A model generated the notes under the pieces. That model did no database searches, was not told the origin of the DNA, and saw only the letters and a program-made list of their open reading frames with translations. A DNA stretch of 64,000 nt from Phycisphaerae bacterium (lineage in GTDB: Bacteria > Planctomycetota > Phycisphaerae > Sedimentisphaerales > Anaerobacaceae), in the NCBI GenBank assembly GCA_030601745.1, contig JAUWBI010000006.1:1-64000 (forward strand), in the 5' to 3' direction. Both the position numbers and the translations under genes were made by a program. How positions within the stretch are numbered: position 1 is the first letter of the stretch; each line of letters opens with the position of its first letter. Below, piece after piece: positions 29,386 through 54,995 of the stretch.

Positions 29386-31375
29386 TTGTTTCCTCTTTCG
29401 GCAGGTTTAGCGGATTAATGCCTTCGAGGTTCCGAGCCAGCCACACTGCCATCTCACCCTTGCCACGGTGCGCCCAGGCGTAGTAGGGAATCGCGACAAA
29501 GTCTTGCTCCTTCGTTACCGTATATTTTCCATCTTTGCTGGAATACGAACCGCAGGCTGTGCCGCAAATCACAGTAACACCGTTCAGCATGTCCTTGCGG
29601 TATTCAGGCCTAAGCGCTGCGTCATCCGGTAAGACAAGGTTGCTCACCCGTCCGCCGTTGTCCGGCCATTCAGCACAATATACTATTGGGCCGCGCTGCA
29701 GCGCCGTTTTCCCCGCATTGTCCTTGACATTTTCGTGGCTCAGCACGCGCCGTATCGGCATAGGTAAAGTCAGTTTGACTACATCGCCTTTTTTCCACTT
29801 CCGACGGATACGGGCAAAGCCCTTATCTATATCCAGAGCAATTAACCTGTCGTTGACCTTGAGTGTTACTTTCTTTCGGCTCTTGTTCAAATACCGGTAC
29901 AAGTCGCTCGGCACGGGTTGATTCTGGGCCCAGCCGGGAATGCGCACGTAAATTGCGAATTCCTTCGACCGTTTCGGCTCCACCGTAATCTTCACGTCTC
30001 CATCCCAGGGGTAGCGCGTCTGCTGCCTTAGGCGCACGGTATTGTCATCCATCTTGATTGTAGCGCTTCCGCTGACGAAAAGATTCACATACACAATGTC
30101 GCCCCGGTGCGCGTAAGCATATCCGGGAAGCGAGGGCACAAAACGCACGATGTTCGTGGGACAGCAGGCGCAGCCGAACCACGGGCTTCGCTGATGGGCA
30201 CCGCCACTGGCCAGCGGGTTCGGGTAGAAGAACTTATCACCGCTTATAGAAATGCCCGAAAGGAACCCGTTGTAGATTACCCGTTCCAGAACGTCGATAT
30301 ACTTTGCCTCGCCGTGCAGCAGGAACAGGCGATGGTTCCACATAGCATTGGCAATGGCGGCACAGGTCTCGCAATAGGCCGTCTTGTTGGGCAACTCGTA
30401 ATCGTTACCGAAGGATTCGCCACCGCGTCGGGCGCCGACACCACCGGTCAGATACAGCTTTTTCGAGACGACGTCCTGCCATATCCGGTCGATTGCCTTG
30501 ACATAATTGGCATCACCGGTCAGCGCTGTGACATCCGCCATCCCGGAATACAGGTAACCTGCCCGGACGGCGTGGCCGACCGCCTTGCTCTGCTCAATCA
30601 CCGGCTTGTGGTCCTGGCTGTACGGGCCATAGAGCTTGTGTCCCTCGGCGCACCCGCGCTCATCAAGGAAGAACTTTGCCAGCTTGAGGTACTTCTCGTT
30701 GCCGGTTACGCGATACAACTTCACCAGGCCTATCTCTATTTCCTCGTGACCGGGCACATCGCGTTTTCTGTCGGGGCCGAAAACCGAATCAATCTTGTCG
30801 GCAAGCCTGATGGCGACATCCAGAATCTTTCTTTTTCCGGTGGCCTGGTAGTAAGCAACCGCACCCTCGAAAAAATGCCCCGCACAGTAAAGTTCATGTT
30901 TGCCGCGAATATCACTCCACCGCTTTTCCGGTTGTCGCCGGGGCACAGAATAAAAGGTATAAAGATAACCGTCTTCCCATTGAGCCGCCGCGATTTTATC
31001 AATCACTCCGTCAACGTATTTCTCAAGTTCCAGGTCGGGATGGTTTTTCAGGCAATAGGCAGCTCCTTCTATTACCTTGTAAAGGTCCGAATCATTAAAG
31101 TAGATGCCTTCAAACTTTCCCTCCATCAGGCCGCCGGCCTTGGCGAAGTTGCTGATACGTCCGGTTTCCTCGCACTTCTTGAAAGCGCAGGGGACAGTTA
31201 CCTTCCGGTTGGTCTCAATCCACGGCGACCAGAACTCATCCGCAAACGCCACGTTAGTAAAGGGCACAGCCGTCAACTTATCTGCTTCCACCATCTGGCA
31301 GCCCGTCAGAAACGTAAAGAAAGTTATGCTCATAAGTGTAAAAGTGCGATTTTTTAGTACTTGAATTTTTCGCAT
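29372..31375 (-). CDS. GH127-family beta-L-arabinofuranosidase-like lipoprotein
   Basis: A 667-residue glycoside hydrolase of the DUF1680/GH127 family, which releases beta-L-arabinofuranose from plant glycans. Active-site positions match the Bifidobacterium HypBA1 pattern. The acid/base Glu is E320 in GGESFGNDYELPN. Zinc ligands and nucleophile lie in YCETCAA (E336, C338) and GCACCPTN (C404, C405). The N-terminus is a lipoprotein leader ending LTGC (Cys26). AGGAGG lies 8 bases before the ATG at 31375. It heads a locus rich in other glycoside hydrolases. Confidence 0.93.
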   Translation of the reverse strand: MRKIQVLKNRTFTLMSITFFTFLTGCQMVEADKLTAVPFTNVAFADEFWSPWIETNRKVTVPCAFKKCEETGRISNFAKAGGLMEGKFEGIYFNDSDLYKVIEGAAYCLKNHPDLELEKYVDGVIDKIAAAQWEDGYLYTFYSVPRRQPEKRWSDIRGKHELYCAGHFFEGAVAYYQATGKRKILDVAIRLADKIDSVFGPDRKRDVPGHEEIEIGLVKLYRVTGNEKYLKLAKFFLDERGCAEGHKLYGPYSQDHKPVIEQSKAVGHAVRAGYLYSGMADVTALTGDANYVKAIDRIWQDVVSKKLYLTGGVGARRGGESFGNDYELPNKTAYCETCAAIANAMWNHRLFLLHGEAKYIDVLERVIYNGFLSGISISGDKFFYPNPLASGGAHQRSPWFGCACCPTNIVRFVPSLPGYAYAHRGDIVYVNLFVSGSATIKMDDNTVRLRQQTRYPWDGDVKITVEPKRSKEFAIYVRIPGWAQNQPVPSDLYRYLNKSRKKVTLKVNDRLIALDIDKGFARIRRKWKKGDVVKLTLPMPIRRVLSHENVKDNAGKTALQRGPIVYCAEWPDNGGRVSNLVLPDDAALRPEYRKDMLNGVTVICGTACGSYSSKDGKYTVTKEQDFVAIPYYAWAHRGKGEMAVWLARNLEGINPLNLPKEETNEEN

Positions 31376-44273: not shown

Positions 44274-45320
44274 TTATAAATTCAAACTCTTTAGACATTC
44301 TTCCAGGGGCAGCTCCGCATAGCAAATAGCGGTATCGGCGACGCCGTAATAAATCTTAAGTTTATCATCCTCGCAGAGCAGGCCGCAGGTAAACACCACA
44401 TTTCCAAAAAAACCTTCAATTTCATAATCGGTCTGCGGCTCAAGAATCGGCTTATCCGCCCTTGCGATAACCTTCCACGGCTGTTTCGCATCCAGAAGCA
44501 CCGCCCCGAGGCAATAGCGATTGTCCCGGTCGGCTCCGTGATAAATCTCCAGCCACCCCCGCTCGATTTTGAACGGTACGGCACTTGCGCCAATTTTTGT
44601 TTCGTCCCAACGACCTGCGCGAGGCCCGCACAGAAATCGATGGTTCCCCCAGCAAAGCAAATCGGGCGATTCTGCAATCCAGATGTCACGTCTCTTAAAC
44701 AGGGGCGAAACCGGCCTGTGCAGAGCATAATATTTGCCGTCAATCCGTTCGGGAAAAAGCACCACATCCTTGTTCTCCGGACAGAAGATAACCCCGTGAC
44801 GCTCGAAAGACTTAAAATCCTTCGTCGATGCCAGGCAGCTCGTTACTCCAAGAGGCGAAACCCCAACGTAACTGATATAGTATGTTCCGTCAATAAAGCT
44901 AATCCGCGGGTCCTCGATGCCGAAGCTTTCATATTCATTTGCCGGGCCGATAGCAACCCTATCTTCAACCTCAAAGTTGATGCCGTCCGTGCTGCGCGCC
45001 AGCCGCAAATGAGAAATCGACGTCAAATATCGCTGCGCTGCCGTCTTTACGAATCTCGGGTCTGAAAAATCGTTCTCCGGCTCATCTTTCGAAAACTCTT
45101 TCAGGATAATGTCACCCCGGGCGACATCGTAAATGCCGGCTAACACCACGTCCGGATGTGTGCTAATCGGCCGCTCCGCCACTCGAAGCAGGAGGATAAT
45201 TTCGTCTTCAAAACGGGCAACGCCGGCATTAAAAACGCCGACAACTTCAAAGTCTCCCCTGGATGGCTTAACATCCTTCGGCCCAATTATAGGATTATCC
45301 GGCGAACGAAATACTTTCAC
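44274..45320 (-). CDS. GH130-family mannoside phosphorylase/mannosidase
   Basis: A 348-residue five-bladed propeller of GH130. Members phosphorolyse or hydrolyse beta-1,4- or beta-1,2-mannosides. Visible are NPIIGPKDV at the N-terminus, GVFNAGVARFEDEIILLLRVAER, the family signature GIEDPRISFIDGTYYISYVG with the catalytic Asp, KDVVLFPERIDGKYYALHRP, and YHGADRDNRYCLGAVLLD. The start is a GTG at 45320. It fits a mannan-using theme with the GH99-like enzyme at 34.7 kb, though the two are not in one operon. Phosphorylase or hydrolase cannot be decided by eye. Confidence 0.9.
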   Translation of the reverse strand: MKVFRSPDNPIIGPKDVKPSRGDFEVVGVFNAGVARFEDEIILLLRVAERPISTHPDVVLAGIYDVARGDIILKEFSKDEPENDFSDPRFVKTAAQRYLTSISHLRLARSTDGINFEVEDRVAIGPANEYESFGIEDPRISFIDGTYYISYVGVSPLGVTSCLASTKDFKSFERHGVIFCPENKDVVLFPERIDGKYYALHRPVSPLFKRRDIWIAESPDLLCWGNHRFLCGPRAGRWDETKIGASAVPFKIERGWLEIYHGADRDNRYCLGAVLLDAKQPWKVIARADKPILEPQTDYEIEGFFGNVVFTCGLLCEDDKLKIYYGVADTAICYAELPLEECLKSLNL

Positions 45321-47271: not shown

Positions 47272-50049
47272 TTATCTGATTCGAATTTCCGATTTTTCCT
47301 CTAAGGCGATTACGAGATAGTTGTGTTTGCCCAGCCCATCCGATGGGCGGGGTTCGCCGTAAAACTCCTTCCTGGCGGGTTTGAAAGGAGGCGGTTCGGT
47401 GGATTCTTGAAAAACCTTGCGCACGCCGACCTCGGCTGGCTCTTTTGCAACGCCCGAAATCAGCACATAGTACGGTTTGCCGCCCCAGCCATCCACTGTT
47501 AAAGTAACTCCATCTTTCTTATCTTCGCGGATATCGCTTATTACACAGGGCGCATGAATAAACCAACCACGATTTCGGAGTTTCTTCACGTCATATATTT
47601 TGCCTCTTCCATAAAGCTCAGCTAAATGGGCCTGCACCGTCCCCGGATTTATAGCAGGCCCCGCACCTATCTGCTCTCGCAAATCGAAAAGGTCCGGCAG
47701 CAATCCCACACGCTTCTTATCTGTCAGCGGCCAGGACATCTGCAGACCGGCGGTCGTGATTCCTCCGGCGACTTTTTCCCACGGACCTTTCGCATCGTAT
47801 TCGCTCAGCAGGTGCAAAGCCGAGCAGTAAACAAGCCCGCACCATTGCACTGGACGCCCAATCCACAACGGCGCCTCCCAGTTCGTCGCACCCAGCACGG
47901 CGATTGTCGCATAGAGACCCACCTCACCGGACGTCGGCGGATAAAGATAGACAAACGGAACACCCGTCCACGCCCAGTAGCGCGCCTGTTCAAGATATTT
48001 TTCCTTCCCCGAAATAATATAGCCGAGCGTATAAGCTTTAATCATATGGGCCGATGCCAATATATCCGGCGTGTGCAGTGGTATCTCCCAGGTTTGTGCT
48101 CCGCGCGGCACGGTGTCGGCATACAGGGCGGTTTGTTTATCGAGCAGCTTAAGCGCTTTATCGATAAGTTCTTTATCCGCCGACAATGCCGCACCTTCAA
48201 GAATCCTGACTATGTCCCGGCCTGAGAGACCGTTAGCATGTTTTGCAAAATGGGTTCTCGAATAGTCCGCTCTGCCCGCCCGGTAGAGTTTTATCCCGTT
48301 TTCGTCGAAATTCTTTAGCAGTCTCAGTGCCTCGTTACGCCGCTGCTGCACGAATTCATTAACTCGCCCGAAGACCAAAGGCGCCGTCGGTGGGCGGACG
48401 TGTGAAACACCACTTGAGAAAGGTTGTCCCGACGGGATTTTACTAAGTGCCTGACCTTTCGCACCGTTAAGTCTCTCGTGGAGTTTTTCATCTCTGGTAT
48501 GATTGGCCAGCCAGTCGATGAACATTGGGGCATCCGCCGCCGCGTGCGGCCCGAAACTGTCACCCCAGACCGCATGTCTGAAAAGGCCATCGCGATTTAT
48601 CTCGGAATCCAGCCAGCCGTGAGCAAGCAGATTCACCGCAGCGTTGAAACCTCCTTCAAACCGCGGCAGAGCAGGCAATCCCCTTATATCCACGTAACGC
48701 TTGACCGCAGGGACAACGCTCTTTCCCTTGCCGCCGATTATCAGCGCAGAGACTTTCAGCGGCTTATTCGCTTCGAGCTTGAAAGGAGTATGGGCAAAAA
48801 ACTCATTCTCAAAGCGAAGCTCTCCCACAGCAGGCGCCGACAGTGCCATTAAATGGGCGCCTGAATTGTAAATCCTGTCCGGCGAATCGAAACTCGCCGC
48901 CACCATATCAGACGGCTCCCAGATTACCCCGATATAATTGCCGTTATTTGCAATTGCCATAAGGGGAAACGTTATCTTAAGCGGGTCGGGGACACGGCGG
49001 ATATGCTTTGGCTTGGCTATGTCCGCGTCACTGCTGCTGGGCTCATCGCAAAGATACTCTACGCCTGCGAACAGGCCCTGGTATTTCTTTTCACCGAACG
49101 TGCCAAGACCCGGGAAAATCGTCAGCCACGGCACGTGCACAATGTCCCTGTCCTTATTTACTTTCAATTCGGCCTCTATTATAAGTGTCCCTTCCTGTTC
49201 CCCGGGCCTTATGTATTTTTGAATCTCCCACTTTCCGCCTCCGCTGTCCTTAATAATTGCCTTGACCTTAAATTCTTTACGTTCAGACCGGCTCTCAAAT
49301 ACAACCTTTGCATTTTTGAGATTGAGCCATTCAGACCGGTCGTCAAACAGCAGGCCAATCAATTCGCACTCGTATCCCGCCGCCATTTCGGCGCCGTTGA
49401 CTTTGAAAATAAAGTTTCCCCATCTTCTTCCATAATGTTCAAATTCCAGGCTTCCCGATTTTACCAATACCGGCTTCCCCCCGGTTTTGTCCGGTCTTTT
49501 CGGCACCTCCAGCAAGGGAGCGACTATCTTGCTCAGTGTTTCCGCCTTAATGAAAGCGACTGTAACTTCTCCCTTACCCGCACACGGGTCAAGCCGAAAA
49601 CGTGTCCCCGGGCCTAACTTATCCTTAATAATAAGGGAGTAGTTATGCCATTGCCCATCGTTTCGCACGCGGAATGGAACGGAGCGGCCGGCCCTGAACC
49701 CCTTACCATAAAAAAGTTCACCACTGGCATCCGCATTCGATTTCATACGTATTTTTACTCTAATCATTTTATCACCGGGCAAATCCACCGCCGGCCCTTC
49801 TATCCACGGGTCAAGCCCTGTTGATTTGACAATCAGCCCTTCCCGAGAGGAGCGCAGATTTTCCACCCTGCTGTTGCCTGTCCAGCCGTGAGCTCCTTTG
49901 CTGAAGTCCCATTCCGCCACTGTTTCTCCATAAGCTCCAGCCGGCACCATCATAATCACTACAAGACCCAACAGTACCGGCAACACTCCAGGATTTACTC
50001 TGGCGAGACAATATCTTCTCATAGTTTCACTGAGTTTGGTAACAGTCAT
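47272..50049 (-). CDS. Large secreted protein, putative polysaccharide-active enzyme
   Basis: A 925-residue exported protein with a signal peptide (LPVLLGLVVIMMVPAGAYG). Residues 45-170 look like a carbohydrate-binding beta-sandwich (AEWDFSKGAHGWTGN...). Residues 190-440 are a second beta-rich region. Residues 460-820 are alpha-helical with repeated Trp/Tyr and an (alpha/alpha)-toroid look (ILEGAALSADKELIDKALKLL, YWAWTGVPFVYLYPPTSGEVG). I cannot name a family; a lyase or glycosidase is likely. AGGAGG five bases before the ATG at 50049 fixes the start. It is the last gene of an operon with a symporter, an aldolase-type lyase and a UroD-like protein. Confidence 0.65.
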   Translation of the reverse strand: MTVTKLSETMRRYCLARVNPGVLPVLLGLVVIMMVPAGAYGETVAEWDFSKGAHGWTGNSRVENLRSSREGLIVKSTGLDPWIEGPAVDLPGDKMIRVKIRMKSNADASGELFYGKGFRAGRSVPFRVRNDGQWHNYSLIIKDKLGPGTRFRLDPCAGKGEVTVAFIKAETLSKIVAPLLEVPKRPDKTGGKPVLVKSGSLEFEHYGRRWGNFIFKVNGAEMAAGYECELIGLLFDDRSEWLNLKNAKVVFESRSERKEFKVKAIIKDSGGGKWEIQKYIRPGEQEGTLIIEAELKVNKDRDIVHVPWLTIFPGLGTFGEKKYQGLFAGVEYLCDEPSSSDADIAKPKHIRRVPDPLKITFPLMAIANNGNYIGVIWEPSDMVAASFDSPDRIYNSGAHLMALSAPAVGELRFENEFFAHTPFKLEANKPLKVSALIIGGKGKSVVPAVKRYVDIRGLPALPRFEGGFNAAVNLLAHGWLDSEINRDGLFRHAVWGDSFGPHAAADAPMFIDWLANHTRDEKLHERLNGAKGQALSKIPSGQPFSSGVSHVRPPTAPLVFGRVNEFVQQRRNEALRLLKNFDENGIKLYRAGRADYSRTHFAKHANGLSGRDIVRILEGAALSADKELIDKALKLLDKQTALYADTVPRGAQTWEIPLHTPDILASAHMIKAYTLGYIISGKEKYLEQARYWAWTGVPFVYLYPPTSGEVGLYATIAVLGATNWEAPLWIGRPVQWCGLVYCSALHLLSEYDAKGPWEKVAGGITTAGLQMSWPLTDKKRVGLLPDLFDLREQIGAGPAINPGTVQAHLAELYGRGKIYDVKKLRNRGWFIHAPCVISDIREDKKDGVTLTVDGWGGKPYYVLISGVAKEPAEVGVRKVFQESTEPPPFKPARKEFYGEPRPSDGLGKHNYLVIALEEKSEIRIR

Positions 50050-50152
50050 AAAAACCTCCTTCGATTTTTTGCTGAAACGTATATCTCTGGCCGGATAGCG
50101 TCAAGTCCCGTTTCTTCTCCGGCAGTGGTGTTCCGCCAAGAACGACTTTCTC

Positions 50153-51676
50153 TCATACCCGAATGTCTCGCTTCCGATTCGTCAGCCCGAAAAGGCAGGC
50201 AACCACGCACAGAGCTGCTGTCCCCACCCCGCCAACGGTAATCTTATCGAGGTTACACCCAACCCAGTGCCATGATTCGGGCAGATGTTCGGCTACAAAA
50301 TCTTGCCGCACAAAAGTCGCCCAACCGATTACGGCGATACTTACCCCGATTGATACAAGACCCTGCCACAGACGAAGGCGAACTCGCAGCAAAGCCAATA
50401 TAAACAAGCCCAGAATCCCACCGCCGAAGATTGCCGAGAGCTGCCACCAGGTATCTAACGCACTTTTTGCTCGAATCATCAAAAGGGCAAATCCGATTCC
50501 AAACAGACCCCACACCACCGTCATCGAACGCAGAAACAGTACGCTGGCCTTGTCCCCGATATTCGGATTAAAATATCGCTTATTGAAATCCAGTAGTAAA
50601 ACGGTCGCCGAGCAATTCAAGGCCGAGTCCACCGTACTCATTGCAGCCGCGAGAATTGCGGCGATGATTAATCCCTTCAGACCTGCCGGAAGCTGTGTCG
50701 CGATGAAATACGGAAAAACCTTATCGCCCTTAGTTATCCCTGCCTCCGCTAATTCACTGCTTTGAGAGTAGAAGGCAAAGAGAGTTGTCCCGATATAGAG
50801 GAAAACCGCCGTGAGCGGAATATATATCAGCATCGCAATCCAGACCGACCGCTTCGCTTCCCGCTCGGTGGCAACGGAGCAGTATTTTTGCACATAATTC
50901 TGGTCCGCCAGTAGGTTCCGCAGGTTCTCTACAACCCCGAAAACAATCATCGCCCATATCGTTCGGTTACCCAGATGTTCCTGGGTGTTCAGAGAAAACT
51001 TCCAACTGCCAAAGCTAAACTTGCTTTTTTCAATGGCCGCCTGTATCAAGGGTTCCGGCCCCGAGAAGACATAGTAGGACAAACTGACGGCGCAGAACAG
51101 AATGCCTATAATCATAATCGCCGATTGCATAACGTCCGTCCATATCACGGCCTCCATCCCGCCGAGCAGTGTATAAATAATGGTAACCACCCCGATGAAT
51201 ATTATCACGGCACGAATGTCCCAGGGAACAAATGTACTCAGCAGCAGACTGGCCAGGTAAAGAATCACAGCAACGCGGCAAACCATATAGAGCACAAACG
51301 CCAGTGCCGCATACACTCGCCCCCACGAGCCGAGTCTCTCTTCCAGAAACGAGTAAACGGATATCAGCCGCTTTTTTCGATAATAGGGCACGGCGTACCT
51401 GCAAACCAGCCACGCAACGGGAAAGATGCATAACGCAAAAATCATGGGATGCCAGTTTGAATCGTATGCCATGCCCGGCGTGGCAATATACGAAATGCTG
51501 CTTGTATAGGCGCTCATCACAGCCAGCCCGGCCGCCCACGCAGGAATCGACCGGCCGGCAACCATAAATTGTTCCGCCGTACGACATTTACGCTTGTAGT
51601 ACACTCCCATCACTATCAGCACGCAGGAATAAAGAACCAGAATGCCGATATCAACTTTGTCGAGACTGCCCTGCAC
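50153..51676 (-). CDS. Sodium:solute symporter (SSS family)
   Basis: A 507-residue transporter with about 13 membrane segments. Typical blocks are FMVAGRSIPAWAAGLAVMSAYTSSISYIATPG (helix 1-2 region), SVYSFLEERLGSWGRVYAALAF, YTLLGGMEAVIWTDVMQSAIM and AAILAAAMSTVDSALNCSATVLLLD (sodium-site helix). Family members import sugars, sialic acid or carboxylates with Na+. The start is a GTG at 51676, 26 bases after the DapA-like gene stop. Substrate is probably the product of the neighbouring secreted enzyme. Confidence 0.93.
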   Translation of the reverse strand: MQGSLDKVDIGILVLYSCVLIVMGVYYKRKCRTAEQFMVAGRSIPAWAAGLAVMSAYTSSISYIATPGMAYDSNWHPMIFALCIFPVAWLVCRYAVPYYRKKRLISVYSFLEERLGSWGRVYAALAFVLYMVCRVAVILYLASLLLSTFVPWDIRAVIIFIGVVTIIYTLLGGMEAVIWTDVMQSAIMIIGILFCAVSLSYYVFSGPEPLIQAAIEKSKFSFGSWKFSLNTQEHLGNRTIWAMIVFGVVENLRNLLADQNYVQKYCSVATEREAKRSVWIAMLIYIPLTAVFLYIGTTLFAFYSQSSELAEAGITKGDKVFPYFIATQLPAGLKGLIIAAILAAAMSTVDSALNCSATVLLLDFNKRYFNPNIGDKASVLFLRSMTVVWGLFGIGFALLMIRAKSALDTWWQLSAIFGGGILGLFILALLRVRLRLWQGLVSIGVSIAVIGWATFVRQDFVAEHLPESWHWVGCNLDKITVGGVGTAALCVVACLFGLTNRKRDIRV

Positions 51677-51702
51677 AATCTTTCGCCTTATCCGAACTCA
51701 CT

Positions 51703-52638
51703 CTATCTTTTCTCCATAATTCCCAGCTCTTCGAGGTGCCGGTGAATCACCTTGCGCTCTGCACGGCGGAAACGGTGAAACGGTTCAGCCAGGAAATCAC
51801 TGCAAATACCCATACACGAAAGCGCACACTTTAGCCCTTTCAGATAACTCGATTCGTATTTTCCCACGCCGTAAATAGCCTTACTGATTTGCATCACCTT
51901 TTTATGAAGTGTTTCGACCGTCGACAAATCCCTTGAAGACGCTGCCTTATAAAGGTCTACATAAAGACGTGGAACAAGATTGGCACCGCCACACACACTA
52001 CCGTGTGCACCCGCTAAAACCGCTTCAGCAAGAAGCTCCTCCTGCCCAATCAGAAGCGAGAAATCAGGTTGCTTCTTTAGCAGCGACAGCAATTGGCGGA
52101 AATAAACCATATCTCCGGAGCTCTCCTTTATACCCACAATGCCGGTTATGGCAGCCGCCGCCCGCACGGTCTCAGGCTCAAAAACAAGCTTCGTGTAGCT
52201 TGGCATATTGTAAAGGAACAATGGCAGCGGAAGTTCAGGAGCTAAATGCTTGAGATACTCGAGCAGTTCCGCCTGACCCGCAGGGAAATAATATGGCGGC
52301 GCCAACACTACCGCCTGCGCGCCGGCGTCTTTTGCTTTGCAGGCGATGTTCACCGACTCCACAAAAGACGTGTCGGTAATCCCAACCAATACCGGTACCC
52401 GCCCTTTGACCTGTGCGCACACGCGTTCAATGAGCTCAGACCGAAGGCGGTAACTAAGACTCGGCGCCTCACCGGTTGTCCCTAAGATAAACAACCCATC
52501 CACACCGCCGGCAAGAATGTGTTCAATCAGCCGCTCAAGACCGGCCGCATCGAGCGTGTCTCGGTCCAGAAGTGGTGTAACCATCGGCGGAATGATACCG
52601 CGCAGCGGCCTCGGTAATAAGTTCGAGTTCGATTCCAT
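51703..52638 (-). CDS. DapA/NanA-family aldolase/lyase
   Basis: A 311-residue class I aldolase of the dihydrodipicolinate synthase superfamily. It has GGVDGLFILGTTGEAPSLS (carboxylate-binding GTTGE), VLAPPYYF, FLYNMPSYT (catalytic Tyr) and GIVGIKESSGD (Schiff-base Lys). Members include N-acetylneuraminate lyase and 2-keto-3-deoxy-sugar-acid aldolases. Its place beside an SSS symporter and a secreted enzyme suggests cleavage of an imported sugar acid rather than lysine biosynthesis. It starts 2 bases after the upstream stop. Confidence 0.9.
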   Translation of the reverse strand: MESNSNLLPRPLRGIIPPMVTPLLDRDTLDAAGLERLIEHILAGGVDGLFILGTTGEAPSLSYRLRSELIERVCAQVKGRVPVLVGITDTSFVESVNIACKAKDAGAQAVVLAPPYYFPAGQAELLEYLKHLAPELPLPLFLYNMPSYTKLVFEPETVRAAAAITGIVGIKESSGDMVYFRQLLSLLKKQPDFSLLIGQEELLAEAVLAGAHGSVCGGANLVPRLYVDLYKAASSRDLSTVETLHKKVMQISKAIYGVGKYESSYLKGLKCALSCMGICSDFLAEPFHRFRRAERKVIHRHLEELGIMEKR

Positions 52639-52640
52639 CT

Positions 52641-53744
52641 TTATTGGCTCCCCATTCTAAGATTAATTTCACCACACAACTCAAGAAATGCCAGAACCCG
52701 TTCATCCGGTGTCCCGGCTTCAATGTCCCCAACGACAACATCGCACGGAGCATAGTCGCGCGCGACCCTTTCCAGGTCCGCCCGAATAGTTTTCAGTGAT
52801 TTGTTTGCCAGGTCCATAGGTGTATACATGAGCGCACGCCGGGCGTGGACAATTGCCTCTTTCGCCCGCGCGAGGTCCGAATCCAGCCCCATATCAATAT
52901 AGCCCAGGTTCGGAACCGCGGCATAATCGCCGATGTAAGGGTTGGCATTCCAGGCACAATTGTGGATGCCGATACAGCCGAACGCTCCCGCAATCCGCAC
53001 ATCGAAAGGCAGCAGAAGGTCACGGTAATGCTCGGGTGACACCATATTAACAAGGCAGTTACTGACCGTGAAGAAACCGACCTTTACCCCGCTCTCTAAT
53101 TGCCGCTTATGGAGCCGCTTTGCCGCCTCAATCATTGTGGTGCAGACGCAATCGAAGAGGCGCCGGCAGCGCTGCGGCGAGTCAATCATATCATAGAAAA
53201 GTTTTTCGCCACGCAGGCGGTGGGCGTTGTTGAGCACACCCTGCAAGTTGACAAATCCTTCGACCCGGCCTTCGTGAGCGGCTATCCAGTCCACCTGCGC
53301 CATAAGCTCCTGAAAGAAAGGATTCGTATCAAGCTCGGGCGGTTCAAGATTGTCCACCTCCTCGTCGCTGAGATACCGATGTTCGCAGTTTGGCCAGTTG
53401 TCCTCAGCGTACACGATTGGAACCCCGTAGATTGCAGCCACGCTGCTGCAGCCGTATGTACCCGTCAGCAGGTCCAGGGGCTCATCCGGCCGGTTGATGC
53501 CGCCGATTTTCGTGCCGCCGAATCGGTGTTTTAATTCACCACGCATAGCAAGAATTGTTTCGCGCCGGTATGCGGGGTCCGTATGCCACCACCGCCCGAA
53601 GTCAATCCCCAGCGCAGTCCGGTACCAATTCGGCGTGAAGCCGACTTCCGGACGCAGAAAGGGTTCATCGCCTCTCGCCGACCGCCGGGTTGCAGGAGCT
53701 GCCGGCGCGATATAGCTCACCAGTTGGCAGGTTTCCATAGGCAT
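52641..53744 (-). CDS. Uroporphyrinogen-decarboxylase-like (URO-D/MtaA superfamily) protein
   Basis: About 367 residues from the ATG at 53744; a TTG at 53774 is the longer reading. The barrel pattern of the URO-D superfamily is visible: GFTPNWYRTALGIDFG, the helix EGFVNLQGVLNNAHRLRGEKLFYDM, LFDCVCTTMIEAAKRL, VSNCLVNMVSPEHYRDLLLPFDVRIAG, GIHNCAWNANPYIGDYAAVPNLGYIDMG. The HNC motif resembles zinc sites of methylcobamide:CoM methyltransferases. The first residues lack the R-x-P-V-W-MRQAG signature of HemE, so haem synthesis is unlikely. Planctomycetes carry many such paralogues beside sugar genes; their role is unknown. It is the first gene of the catabolic operon. Confidence 0.8.
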   Translation of the reverse strand: MPMETCQLVSYIAPAAPATRRSARGDEPFLRPEVGFTPNWYRTALGIDFGRWWHTDPAYRRETILAMRGELKHRFGGTKIGGINRPDEPLDLLTGTYGCSSVAAIYGVPIVYAEDNWPNCEHRYLSDEEVDNLEPPELDTNPFFQELMAQVDWIAAHEGRVEGFVNLQGVLNNAHRLRGEKLFYDMIDSPQRCRRLFDCVCTTMIEAAKRLHKRQLESGVKVGFFTVSNCLVNMVSPEHYRDLLLPFDVRIAGAFGCIGIHNCAWNANPYIGDYAAVPNLGYIDMGLDSDLARAKEAIVHARRALMYTPMDLANKSLKTIRADLERVARDYAPCDVVVGDIEAGTPDERVLAFLELCGEINLRMGSQ

Positions 53745-54134
53745 TCCGCCATTCTCTGCCACAAATAATATCAAAAATCAAATATCAAAATGCAAAATTA
53801 AGGAAGTCGTTGCCGCTTTGCGGCAACTCCACAATTTTGATTTTTTATTTTTAATTTTTGCGTTTTCTTGGGCATCGCAGCTCAATCCTTCCGCTATGCA
53901 GCATTCAACTTTCAAACCGATTACACAATAACCAAAATTTTCAAATCCGTCAACAGCAGACCATAATCCCCGCCAAAACAAAATCTGTATCAATCTGTGA
54001 AACTTGTGCACGCGCAGGCGGATATCTGTGGCTTTATAATTTTTGAATCTCTGCGCTCTCGACATGCTCTGCCTGCACCTGTGGTTGCGCAGGCACAGGT
54101 GCGGTTAATCTCTTAACCTTTCTATCCGCTATTT
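53745..54134. other. Repeat-rich spacer
   Basis: No gene. Bases 53768-53860 are AT-rich words of the atcaaatatcaaa family also seen before alaS (15975-16030). Bases 54069-54101 are the second copy of a 33-base element described at 6635-6667. Promoters for the catabolic operon and terminators for ilvE must lie here, but I could not assign them. Confidence 0.5.
54069..54101 (-). repeat. 33-bp dispersed element, copy 2
   Basis: It is the inverted copy of 6635-6667 (32 of 33 identical). It can form the same two alternative hairpins. It lies just downstream of ilvE (minus strand). Confidence 0.75.
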
Positions 54135-54995
54135 CTACTTTCTGTGGGCGTACCTGAAAAACTTTTTTCTCAGCAGGCGGGTATAAGGCCCGGGCTTGCC
54201 GTCACCGATAACTCTGCCGTCAATCTCGACAATGCCGATGACCTCGGCGGCCGTTCCGGTAAGGAAAAATTCATCGCAAATATATAAATCACATCTCGTC
54301 AGATTCTTCTCAACCACCTCAAGGTTTTCTTCCCTGGCCAATTTGATAACGACACCTCGCGTTATCCCTTCCAGTGCGCCTGCTTCGACCGGCGGTGTAT
54401 AAATCACACCGTTTCTCGCAATAAAAACATTGTCGGCCGTTGCCTCGGCAACGTAACCTTCGTGGTTATACATAATCGCCTCGGGCACGTCATTGTCCAG
54501 CGCCTCAATCTTGGCCAGAATGCTATTGAGATAATTCAAGCTTTTGACCTGCGGTGGAAGTGCCAGAGGATGATTGCGAACCGTCGTTGCACTGATTACC
54601 TTCATACCTTTTTCATAAAGCTCCTCCGGATAAAGCTGAATGTTATCGGCTATGATAAATAATCGCCCCCCCTCGCAGATGAAGGGATTCAGTCCCAGAG
54701 TCCCCACTCCGCGGGTCATCACCAGGCGGATATAACCGTCAATAACGCCGTTAGCTTCAACGGTTTTCTCAACGGCGCTGATAAGTTTGCTTTTGCTCAT
54801 CGGAACATCAAGGCGAATCACCTTCGCCGATTCATAAAGCCGCTTTATATGGGCTTCCAGCTCAAATATCCTGCCGTTGTAAACACGAATACCCTCAAAA
54901 ACCCCGTCACCATAAAGCACACCATGGTCGAAAGCAGATATTTTAGCATCCGCCTCGTCAACAAGTGCGTCGTCAAGCCAAACTTTTAGTGCCAT
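54135..54995 (-). CDS. ilvE: Branched-chain amino-acid aminotransferase
   Basis: A 286-residue class IV PLP aminotransferase. Blocks: FDHGVLYGDGVFEGIRVYNGRIFELEAHIKRL, IRLVMTRGVGTLGLNP, QVKSLNYLNSILAKIEA (PLP Lys), EGYVAEATADNVFI, GITRGVVIKLA and DEFFLTGTAAEVIGIVEIDGR. It makes Val, Leu and Ile from their 2-keto acids. D-amino-acid aminotransferase is a sister group, but the length and motifs fit IlvE. Confidence 0.92.
   Translation of the reverse strand: MALKVWLDDALVDEADAKISAFDHGVLYGDGVFEGIRVYNGRIFELEAHIKRLYESAKVIRLDVPMSKSKLISAVEKTVEANGVIDGYIRLVMTRGVGTLGLNPFICEGGRLFIIADNIQLYPEELYEKGMKVISATTVRNHPLALPPQVKSLNYLNSILAKIEALDNDVPEAIMYNHEGYVAEATADNVFIARNGVIYTPPVEAGALEGITRGVVIKLAREENLEVVEKNLTRCDLYICDEFFLTGTAAEVIGIVEIDGRVIGDGKPGPYTRLLRKKFFRYAHRK

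Follow-up and report, generated by a model that had tools for sequence, protein, structure and literature searches.

Arrangement of the four genes

The window (the whole stretch of 64,000 nucleotides analysed here, from contig JAUWBI010000006.1 of a Phycisphaerae bacterium) contains four consecutive genes on the minus strand, which encode, in the 5'→3' order, a UroD-like protein, a DapA-like lyase, a Na+ symporter of the SSS family, and a secreted protein of 925 residues, hereafter termed P925. They likely constitute an operon with a role in sugar-acid use. The genes are as follows.

52641..53744, minus strand: UroD-superfamily protein, 367 residues from the ATG at 53744 (Pfam URO-D and predicted fold)
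51703..52638, minus strand: class I pyruvate aldolase/lyase of the DHDPS/NAL superfamily, 311 residues (Pfam DHDPS)
50153..51676, minus strand: SSS-family Na+ symporter, SiaT-like, 507 residues, GTG start (Pfam SSF)
47272..50049, minus strand: P925, secreted, unnamed family, 925 residues (no Pfam match above cut-off)

All four open reading frames (ORFs) were confirmed, and the adjacency described in an earlier, sequence-only reading of this DNA, with gaps of 2 (UroD/DapA-like), 26 (DapA-like/SSS), and 103 bases (SSS/P925), was exact on recheck. The Pfam scores lie above the respective cut-offs for SSF (142.6 bits; cut-off, 22.8), DHDPS (206.8; 22.1), and URO-D (31.7; 23.9). An in-frame TTG at 53774 (ORF 52641..53774) would extend the UroD-like protein by 10 residues. 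A ribosome site, AGGAGG, precedes the P925 gene, and the SSS/P925 gap (50050–50152) is devoid of a terminator-like site on the minus strand; the terminator scan yielded 14 sites against 9.4 expected. The source assembly, representing the window's own genome (G000), comprises 3.45 Mb in 123 contigs and is 87% complete.

Substrate site of the SSS symporter

Among solved structures, the symporter is most closely related to SiaT of Proteus mirabilis (PDB ID: 5NV9; 209.7 bits), a member of the same family with 30% identity over the aligned columns, and next to SMCT1 (138.5 bits). The SiaT report describes Ser60, Thr63, and Arg135 as the ligands of the substrate carboxylate, Gln82 as serving the glycerol tail, and Phe78, Gly81, and Phe243 as serving the N-acetyl group (PMC5931594). 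At the positions of the carboxylate ligands, the window symporter has Ser59, Ser62, and Arg134. This Ser/Ser/Arg clamp is present in all nine complete symporters linked to P925 (that of the window and eight others, the fragment at L035 being dropped), and also in 6/6 symporters linked to DapA without P925. Further features shared with SiaT are the Ser at the Na2 position 342 (with Thr for Ser at 343) and Asp182. Unlike in SiaT, the residues of the glycerol-tail and N-acetyl pockets are replaced in the nine P925-linked symporters (Gln82 by Ala or Ser, Phe78 by Pro or Thr, Gly81 by Phe, and Phe243 by Gly), and the Na3 position 345 is Asp. As a control, just one of the nine other SSS genes in the own genome carries the clamp (as Ser/Thr/Arg), namely a NanM–SSS fusion. 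Because the clamp is kept, the pockets for N-acetylneuraminate (Neu5Ac) are replaced, and eight of the nine control genes are without the clamp, a carboxylate on the substrate is very likely and Neu5Ac itself an unlikely candidate, as judged from the aligned residues.

The fusion is encoded by ORF 5177-7903 of L268 (G000:C90:3000-17000), in which a NanM mutarotase is joined to the clamp-bearing symporter, and adjoins a D-2-hydroxyacid dehydrogenase gene.

Active site of the DapA-type lyase

The active site of the lyase was compared in an alignment of 21 members with Escherichia coli DapA, NanA, and the 2-keto-3-deoxygluconate (KDG) aldolase YagE, to which the window protein is 26–29% identical (YagE, 28.8%; NanA, 27.1%). 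Lys171, Tyr143, Tyr117, and Gly198 occur in all 21 members, Lys171 being the Schiff-base lysine and Tyr143/Tyr117 the tyrosine relay. Arg138 of DHDPS, which binds the substrate carboxylate, is missing in 21/21, its position being held by Tyr, His, Leu, Cys, Met, or Gln. The Schiff-base Lys, the Tyr, and a hydroxyl residue are shared with NanA and YagE, the last as Ser173 in all 21 members where these two enzymes have Thr. The differences from them, besides the low identity, are a Glu in 21/21 for Asp191, which together with Glu192 (retained in 17/21) is a NanA site, and an invariant Lys150, located two residues past the DHDPS arginine position, where all three E. coli proteins have Gly. The lyase forms its own subclade with a YN(M/I)PxxTK motif.

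Biosynthetic DapA was rejected as an identity of the lyase because Arg138 is lost in 21/21 and the score in the NCBIfam dapA equivalog model (175.5 bits) lies below the cut-off of 206.15, and standard NanA because of the score in the nanA model (102.5 bits; cut-off, 382). The sequence-only reading had named lyase residues typical of biosynthetic DapA as the finding that would speak against its proposal; since Arg138 is lacking throughout, such residues were not encountered. The nearest solved relative, 4XKY (402 bits), a Bacteroides thetaiotaomicron protein deposited as 'dihydrodipicolinate synthase', is 60% identical, shares the TK motif, and is also without the DHDPS arginine; no assay of it was found in a literature search. 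In the own genome, 87% complete, the gene of this operon was the one DHDPS-family gene found, and no lysine-pathway dapA was seen.

Across the phylum, genes neighbouring members of the subclade encode SSS symporters, FGGY kinases, an Fe-dependent alcohol dehydrogenase, lactate racemase, GntR- and AraC-type regulators, Gfo/Idh together with UroD and sulfatase, and a protein with fucose-isomerase matches below the cut-off. A protein in L165 has a BNR match beneath the Pfam cut-off, whereas no match was obtained for the homologous protein of L166. In L037, the gene immediately upstream of DapA-SSS-P925 encodes a BNR_2 propeller protein (296.8 bits), for which sialidases are the nearest solved structures, at just 43 bits; no FRIP motif was seen in it by eye.

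Predicted structure of P925

P925 has an N-terminal signal peptide, as judged by eye, and the sequence-only description of it as a protein of no clear family was borne out, in that Pfam gave no match at E ≤ 0.01 for any of the 48 family members aligned. The best match of its profile in PDB has an E value of 0.023 over 78 residues. The AlphaFold2 model (pLDDT, 89.5; 48 sequences) is predicted to consist of a jelly-roll-like domain (residues ~41–172), a β super-sandwich (~192–441), an (α/α)6 barrel (~446–815), and a C-terminal β part, with the limits read off the secondary structure of the model. Foldseek gave partial matches, with TM ≤ 0.33 for the two top entries (3ecq and 5no8). In structural comparison by VIA, which covers listed families only, the barrel resembled most the GH88 unsaturated glucuronyl hydrolases (Z-score, 19.2, descending to 18.1; 309 aligned residues; root-mean-squared deviation (rmsd), 4.3). 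A Flavonifractor galactosaminidase tied with them, mainly over the sandwich (Z-score, 18.9; 225 aligned; rmsd, 2.9; another galactosaminidase entry, 18.6), and the GH76 mannanases and 2-epimerases followed (Z-scores, 16–17). The PL27 rhamnose-glucuronate lyase BACCELL_00875 (5NO8; Z-score, 16.9; 477 aligned; rmsd, 7.2, over residues 198–818) has the same order of sandwich and (α/α)6 barrel as P925. No sequence relation was found to this lyase or to the GH88 hydrolases; for the latter, alignment of the P925 profile with eight GH88 proteins by hhalign gave a probability of 0.5%. On sequence, P925 as a GH88 enzyme was therefore rejected, the likeness being at the level of fold alone, as was P925 as a phage protein, for which there was no PHROG match. 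Because GH88 and galactosaminidases tie in Z-score, with GH76 and 2-epimerases close behind, the fold does not select the type of activity. An invariant cluster, R649-G-A-Q-x-W-E655...H659-T-P-D662, lies in a loop, part of which (655–659) is modeled with low confidence.

Relatives of P925 occur in genomes whose titles name Planctomycetota/Phycisphaerae, Verrucomicrobia, Lentisphaerae, Kiritimatiellae, Hydrogenedentota, and Armatimonadetes; the nearest relatives of the window protein come from metagenome-derived genomes with Phycisphaerae, Planctomycetota, or Sedimentisphaerales in the title. According to the model, P925 represents an unnamed family with a carbohydrate-active type of fold. The structure prediction suggested in the sequence-only reading has thus yielded a sandwich/(α/α)6 fold common to several sugar-acting enzymes, and the extracellular depolymerisation proposed there would follow from this fold alone.

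The UroD-like protein

The predicted fold of the UroD-like protein (pLDDT, 77, moderate) had as its best Foldseek match MtaA, a methyltransferase of Methanosarcina mazei (4AY7; E = 7.9e-12); in VIA, HemE (6w2o) scored highest (Z-score, 22.9; rmsd, 3.5; 306 aligned), with 4AY7 at 21.2. An identity as HemE was rejected, as no hemE match was obtained with NCBIfam at E ≤ 0.1. The window protein shares with 4AY7 the UroD fold and a His-x-Cys pair, His261-x-Cys263, which is present in 13/13 aligned UroD-like proteins and corresponds to the zinc ligands of the MtaA/CmuA methyltransferases. These methyltransferases have a third Cys near the C-terminus. Unlike 4AY7, the window protein is without such a residue, having 'VVGDIEAGTP' where L162 has 'SSGCVVP', and its Cys230 is located elsewhere; this residue is shared by the three relatives closest to the window protein and, as judged by eye, by several more. 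The score in the mtaA_cmuA model is 12.6 bits (cut-off, 235.4). Corrinoid-linked demethylation is one option for the role of this protein. It is weakened because the two B12-binding_2 proteins detected in the own genome with PF02607 are encoded on contigs (C79 and C17) in which no UroD-family gene was found.

The own genome contains 12 UroD ORFs (13 matches, two in one ORF) and 10 SSS genes (11 matches, two in one ORF). Four of the 12 UroD ORFs have an SSS gene at most 4 kb away (on contigs C4 and C89, and twice on C2), giving a rough, post hoc binomial p of ~4e-4, or ~4e-3 with the C2 pair counted once. A symporter was recognised in 2/8 UroD regions of the own genome (L190 and L191) and in 2/6 of those from other genomes (L198 and L199); as none was recognised in the other 10/14, proximity to SSS is not a general feature of UroD genes. 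In L198 (G127:C1:1061000-1075000), from the same order, a UroD distantly related to that of the window (26% identity) is accompanied by three other UroD-family ORFs, of which one is cut by the end of the fetched region and one is confirmed by Pfam, the others having been recognised by blast. This region also encodes three BNR_2-matching proteins, two of which score above the Pfam cut-off and have a sialidase-like YRIP motif, two SSS-like ORFs (the tested one being a NanM–SSS fusion), and a sulfatase, and has the appearance of a locus of the sialate type that includes UroDs. In L162, DapA, Gfo/Idh, UroD, and SSS genes form a run. On the basis of L198, L162, and the UroD–SSS pairs in the own genome, UroD-family proteins are repeated members of some sugar loci with symporters. 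The sequence-only remark that the UroD-like protein has no known role in sugar-acid use still holds, though the protein does travel with DapA and SSS.

A further region of the own genome, L191 (G000:C2:1-16000), contains two UroDs, an SSS gene, a 3-hydroxyisobutyrate-dehydrogenase-like gene, Gfo/Idh, and an apiosidase-like gene.

Recurrence of the gene set

Among 76 loci with P925 relatives, all from named genomes, an SSS homologue was found upstream of P925 in nine, with DapA too in five and UroD in two; the upstream SSS of L035 is the fragment mentioned above, cut by the contig end. L052 contains all four genes in the order UroD-DapA-SSS-P925, with an overlap of 4 bases between SSS and P925, and L038 contains UroD-SSS-P925. 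If the count is restricted to the 60 loci in which P925 is preceded by ≥600 bases, SSS is present in eight, and in 7/11 at a P925 identity of ≥60%, which points to more than a chance association. The gene order is identical in 8/8 and the SSS–P925 gap is ≤105 bases in 7/8; in L031, an ORF that is MgtC-like by eye separates the two genes, with a gap of 639 bases. The partner genes are not beside P925 in L032 and L033 (P925, 81% and 77% identical). Whole-genome search of the two corresponding genomes, G326 and G327, revealed UroD-DapA-SSS together, with P925 on a different contig; the genes flanking the set in G326 encode a Gfo/Idh oxidoreductase, a protein with an FGE-sulfatase domain, a ThuA/3-keto-disaccharide hydrolase, and a pyrroloquinoline quinone (PQQ) propeller. 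In G325, the UroD gene is found at the end of a contig (C31:84-1172) and the DapA gene begins at base 3 of another, C239, which would fit the UroD-DapA order of the set. Because the trio is kept in two genomes with P925 on another contig, the conserved core is UroD-DapA-SSS, and P925 is a frequent partner, joined to it in some species.

The DapA type was detected in 14 of the 23 genomes reached via P925 loci (23 of the 76, picked mostly among close relatives) and UroD in six, five of these with DapA. In a phylum sample of 294 genomes, including the own genome, the DapA type is present in 21, and relatives of P925 and UroD at E ≤ 0.001 in 26 and 17, respectively; only G244 (31% identity) and the own genome have a UroD relative passing 1e-20. 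Fisher's test for DapA with P925 (14/23 versus 20/293) gave p ~7.5e-10, uncorrected for kinship; given this kinship among the genomes and a possible overlap between the two sets, the value is no clean probability. SSS occurs within at least 6/19 DapA regions and is directly adjacent in five, a lower bound because the ORF picker dropped the DapA ORF in 5/19 of these regions (L164, L172, L174, L176, and L177); it did so in L253–L257 as well. A literature search at the level of listings retrieved no description of the UroD-DapA-SSS-P925 combination and no earlier report of UroD within sugar operons.

In the window, the set is preceded by a minus-strand class IV aminotransferase gene (54135-54995), 390 bases ahead of the UroD ATG, and followed, downstream of P925, by a plus-strand β-helix gene and then by the following gene.

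44274..45320, minus strand: GH130-family gene (Pfam, 210 bits)

The GH130 gene may be a further partner of P925, because its homologue (cluster c33) directly follows P925 in L032 and L033. Other shared neighbours, all named by eye (queG-like c1, methylthioadenosine (MTA)-phosphorylase-like c4, and CTP-synthase-like c11), were rejected as partners, as was KdsB in L037, since they seem to reflect housekeeping or chance. Elsewhere in the window, a weak GH88-family match is located at 30674-30937, within a long minus-strand open frame.

Proposed pathway and alternatives

On balance, we regard the four genes as a probable small sugar-acid utilisation unit of Phycisphaerae-type planctomycetes, serving import and retro-aldol cleavage. 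Besides the symporter and lyase residues, the linkage seen in L052, G326, and G327, the frequency of the DapA type in genomes reached via P925 loci, and the context of L037 (BNR_2 propeller) and L198 (UroD-family ORFs with YRIP proteins and a NanM–SSS fusion) speak for it. In this pathway, secreted P925, an (α/α)6 carbohydrate-active enzyme as suggested by its fold and signal peptide, would free an acidic sugar or short oligosaccharide, which the SiaT-like Na+ symporter would import via its carboxylate, in line with the clamp residues. The lyase would then form a Schiff base through Lys171 and split a 2-keto-3-deoxy acid, with release of pyruvate and an aldehyde, as its active-site residues indicate. 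The UroD-like protein, probably a zinc enzyme, may prepare the substrate or handle the product, for example by methyl or carboxyl removal. The substrate is probably an ulosonic acid or a uronate-derived keto-acid other than N-acetylneuraminate. The sugar-acid design of the sequence-only reading thus stands with respect to import and retro-aldol cleavage, on the symporter and lyase residues; as for sialic acid proper, the replaced SiaT pocket, the nanA score, and the failure to find NanE in the 87%-complete genome speak against it.

Several observations weigh against the utilisation unit. The window-type UroD is rare, being found at E ≤ 1e-20 in 1/293 genomes besides the own genome (G244), and SSS was not recognised on the 4.9-kb contig of G244 that carries it. 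SSS is absent from 52 of the 60 P925 loci with sufficient upstream sequence, and G332, with its P925 locus on a chromosome-sized record (CP070678, 5.84 Mb), has UroD-SSS-P925 and no DapA at E ≤ 1e-60. P925 matched no characterised enzyme in Pfam, NCBIfam, PHROG, and PDB sequence searches, the four-gene set lacks a kinase, dehydrogenase, or epimerase that would act on the aldehyde product, and the promoter scan was at chance (8 found, 8.2 expected).

Use of a uronate polysaccharide appears a doubtful alternative, in which P925 would be a lyase or unsaturated-uronyl hydrolase (PL27/GH88-like), the symporter would import a keto-deoxy-uronate, and the lyase would be a KDG-type aldolase. The carboxylate clamp would suit such a substrate, the lyase is equally near to YagE and NanA, GH88 tops the VIA list for the barrel, and PL27 5no8 spans both the sandwich and the barrel; however, the galactosaminidases tie with GH88 (Z-scores, 18.9 and 18.6), GH76 mannanases and 2-epimerases follow at 16–17, and the profile comparison with eight GH88 proteins was negative. 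It also seems unlikely that P925 is a stand-alone secreted protein that merely keeps company with an unrelated UroD-DapA-SSS set. Its location on a separate contig in G326 and G327, the 52/60 loci without SSS, and its divergent orientation from a queG-like gene (named by eye) in seven loci would fit this explanation, against which stand the 4-base SSS/P925 overlap in L052, the short gaps in 7/8 loci, and the identical order in 8/8.

A true Neu5Ac operon, with a NanA-like lyase, a SiaT transporter, and a secreted sialidase-like enzyme, is quite improbable. The proximity of the symporter to SiaT, the membership of the lyase in the NanA superfamily, and the BNR_2 and NanM–SSS proteins of related loci agree with it, but Gln82, Phe78, and Gly81 are replaced in the nine P925-linked symporters, the lyase falls far below the nanA cut-off, the P925 model is not a propeller, and a search of the own genome, 87% complete, gave no NanE. 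That the 311-residue protein is the lysine-pathway DapA of the organism is highly improbable: it is the sole DHDPS-family match in the own genome, but the assembly is incomplete, and the loss of Arg138, the sub-cut-off dapA score, and the operon context all argue otherwise.

For the favoured sugar-acid utilisation unit, the kind of pathway (secreted enzyme, SSS symporter, and aldolase) is known; the lyase subclade is new, the secreted family is unnamed, and the UroD member is unexplained. As a more tentative possibility, the putative UroD zinc enzyme (Cys230, His261, and Cys263) may be dedicated to a step in the breakdown of modified sugar acids by bacteria of the Planctomycetes–Verrucomicrobia–Chlamydiae (PVC) group, beside SiaT-like symporters and the new keto-deoxy-acid lyase subclade, and P925 may found a new family of extracellular carbohydrate-active enzymes. 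Testable substrates and residues are now at hand for three groups of orphan proteins from uncultured planctomycetes and related bacteria: the secreted (α/α)6 protein P925 (76 loci), a lyase subclade liable to be named DapA, and the UroD-like proteins, of which the 12 in the own genome exceed the need of heme synthesis. If the UroD step is catabolic, many annotations of 'uroporphyrinogen decarboxylase' in these phyla would be misleading.

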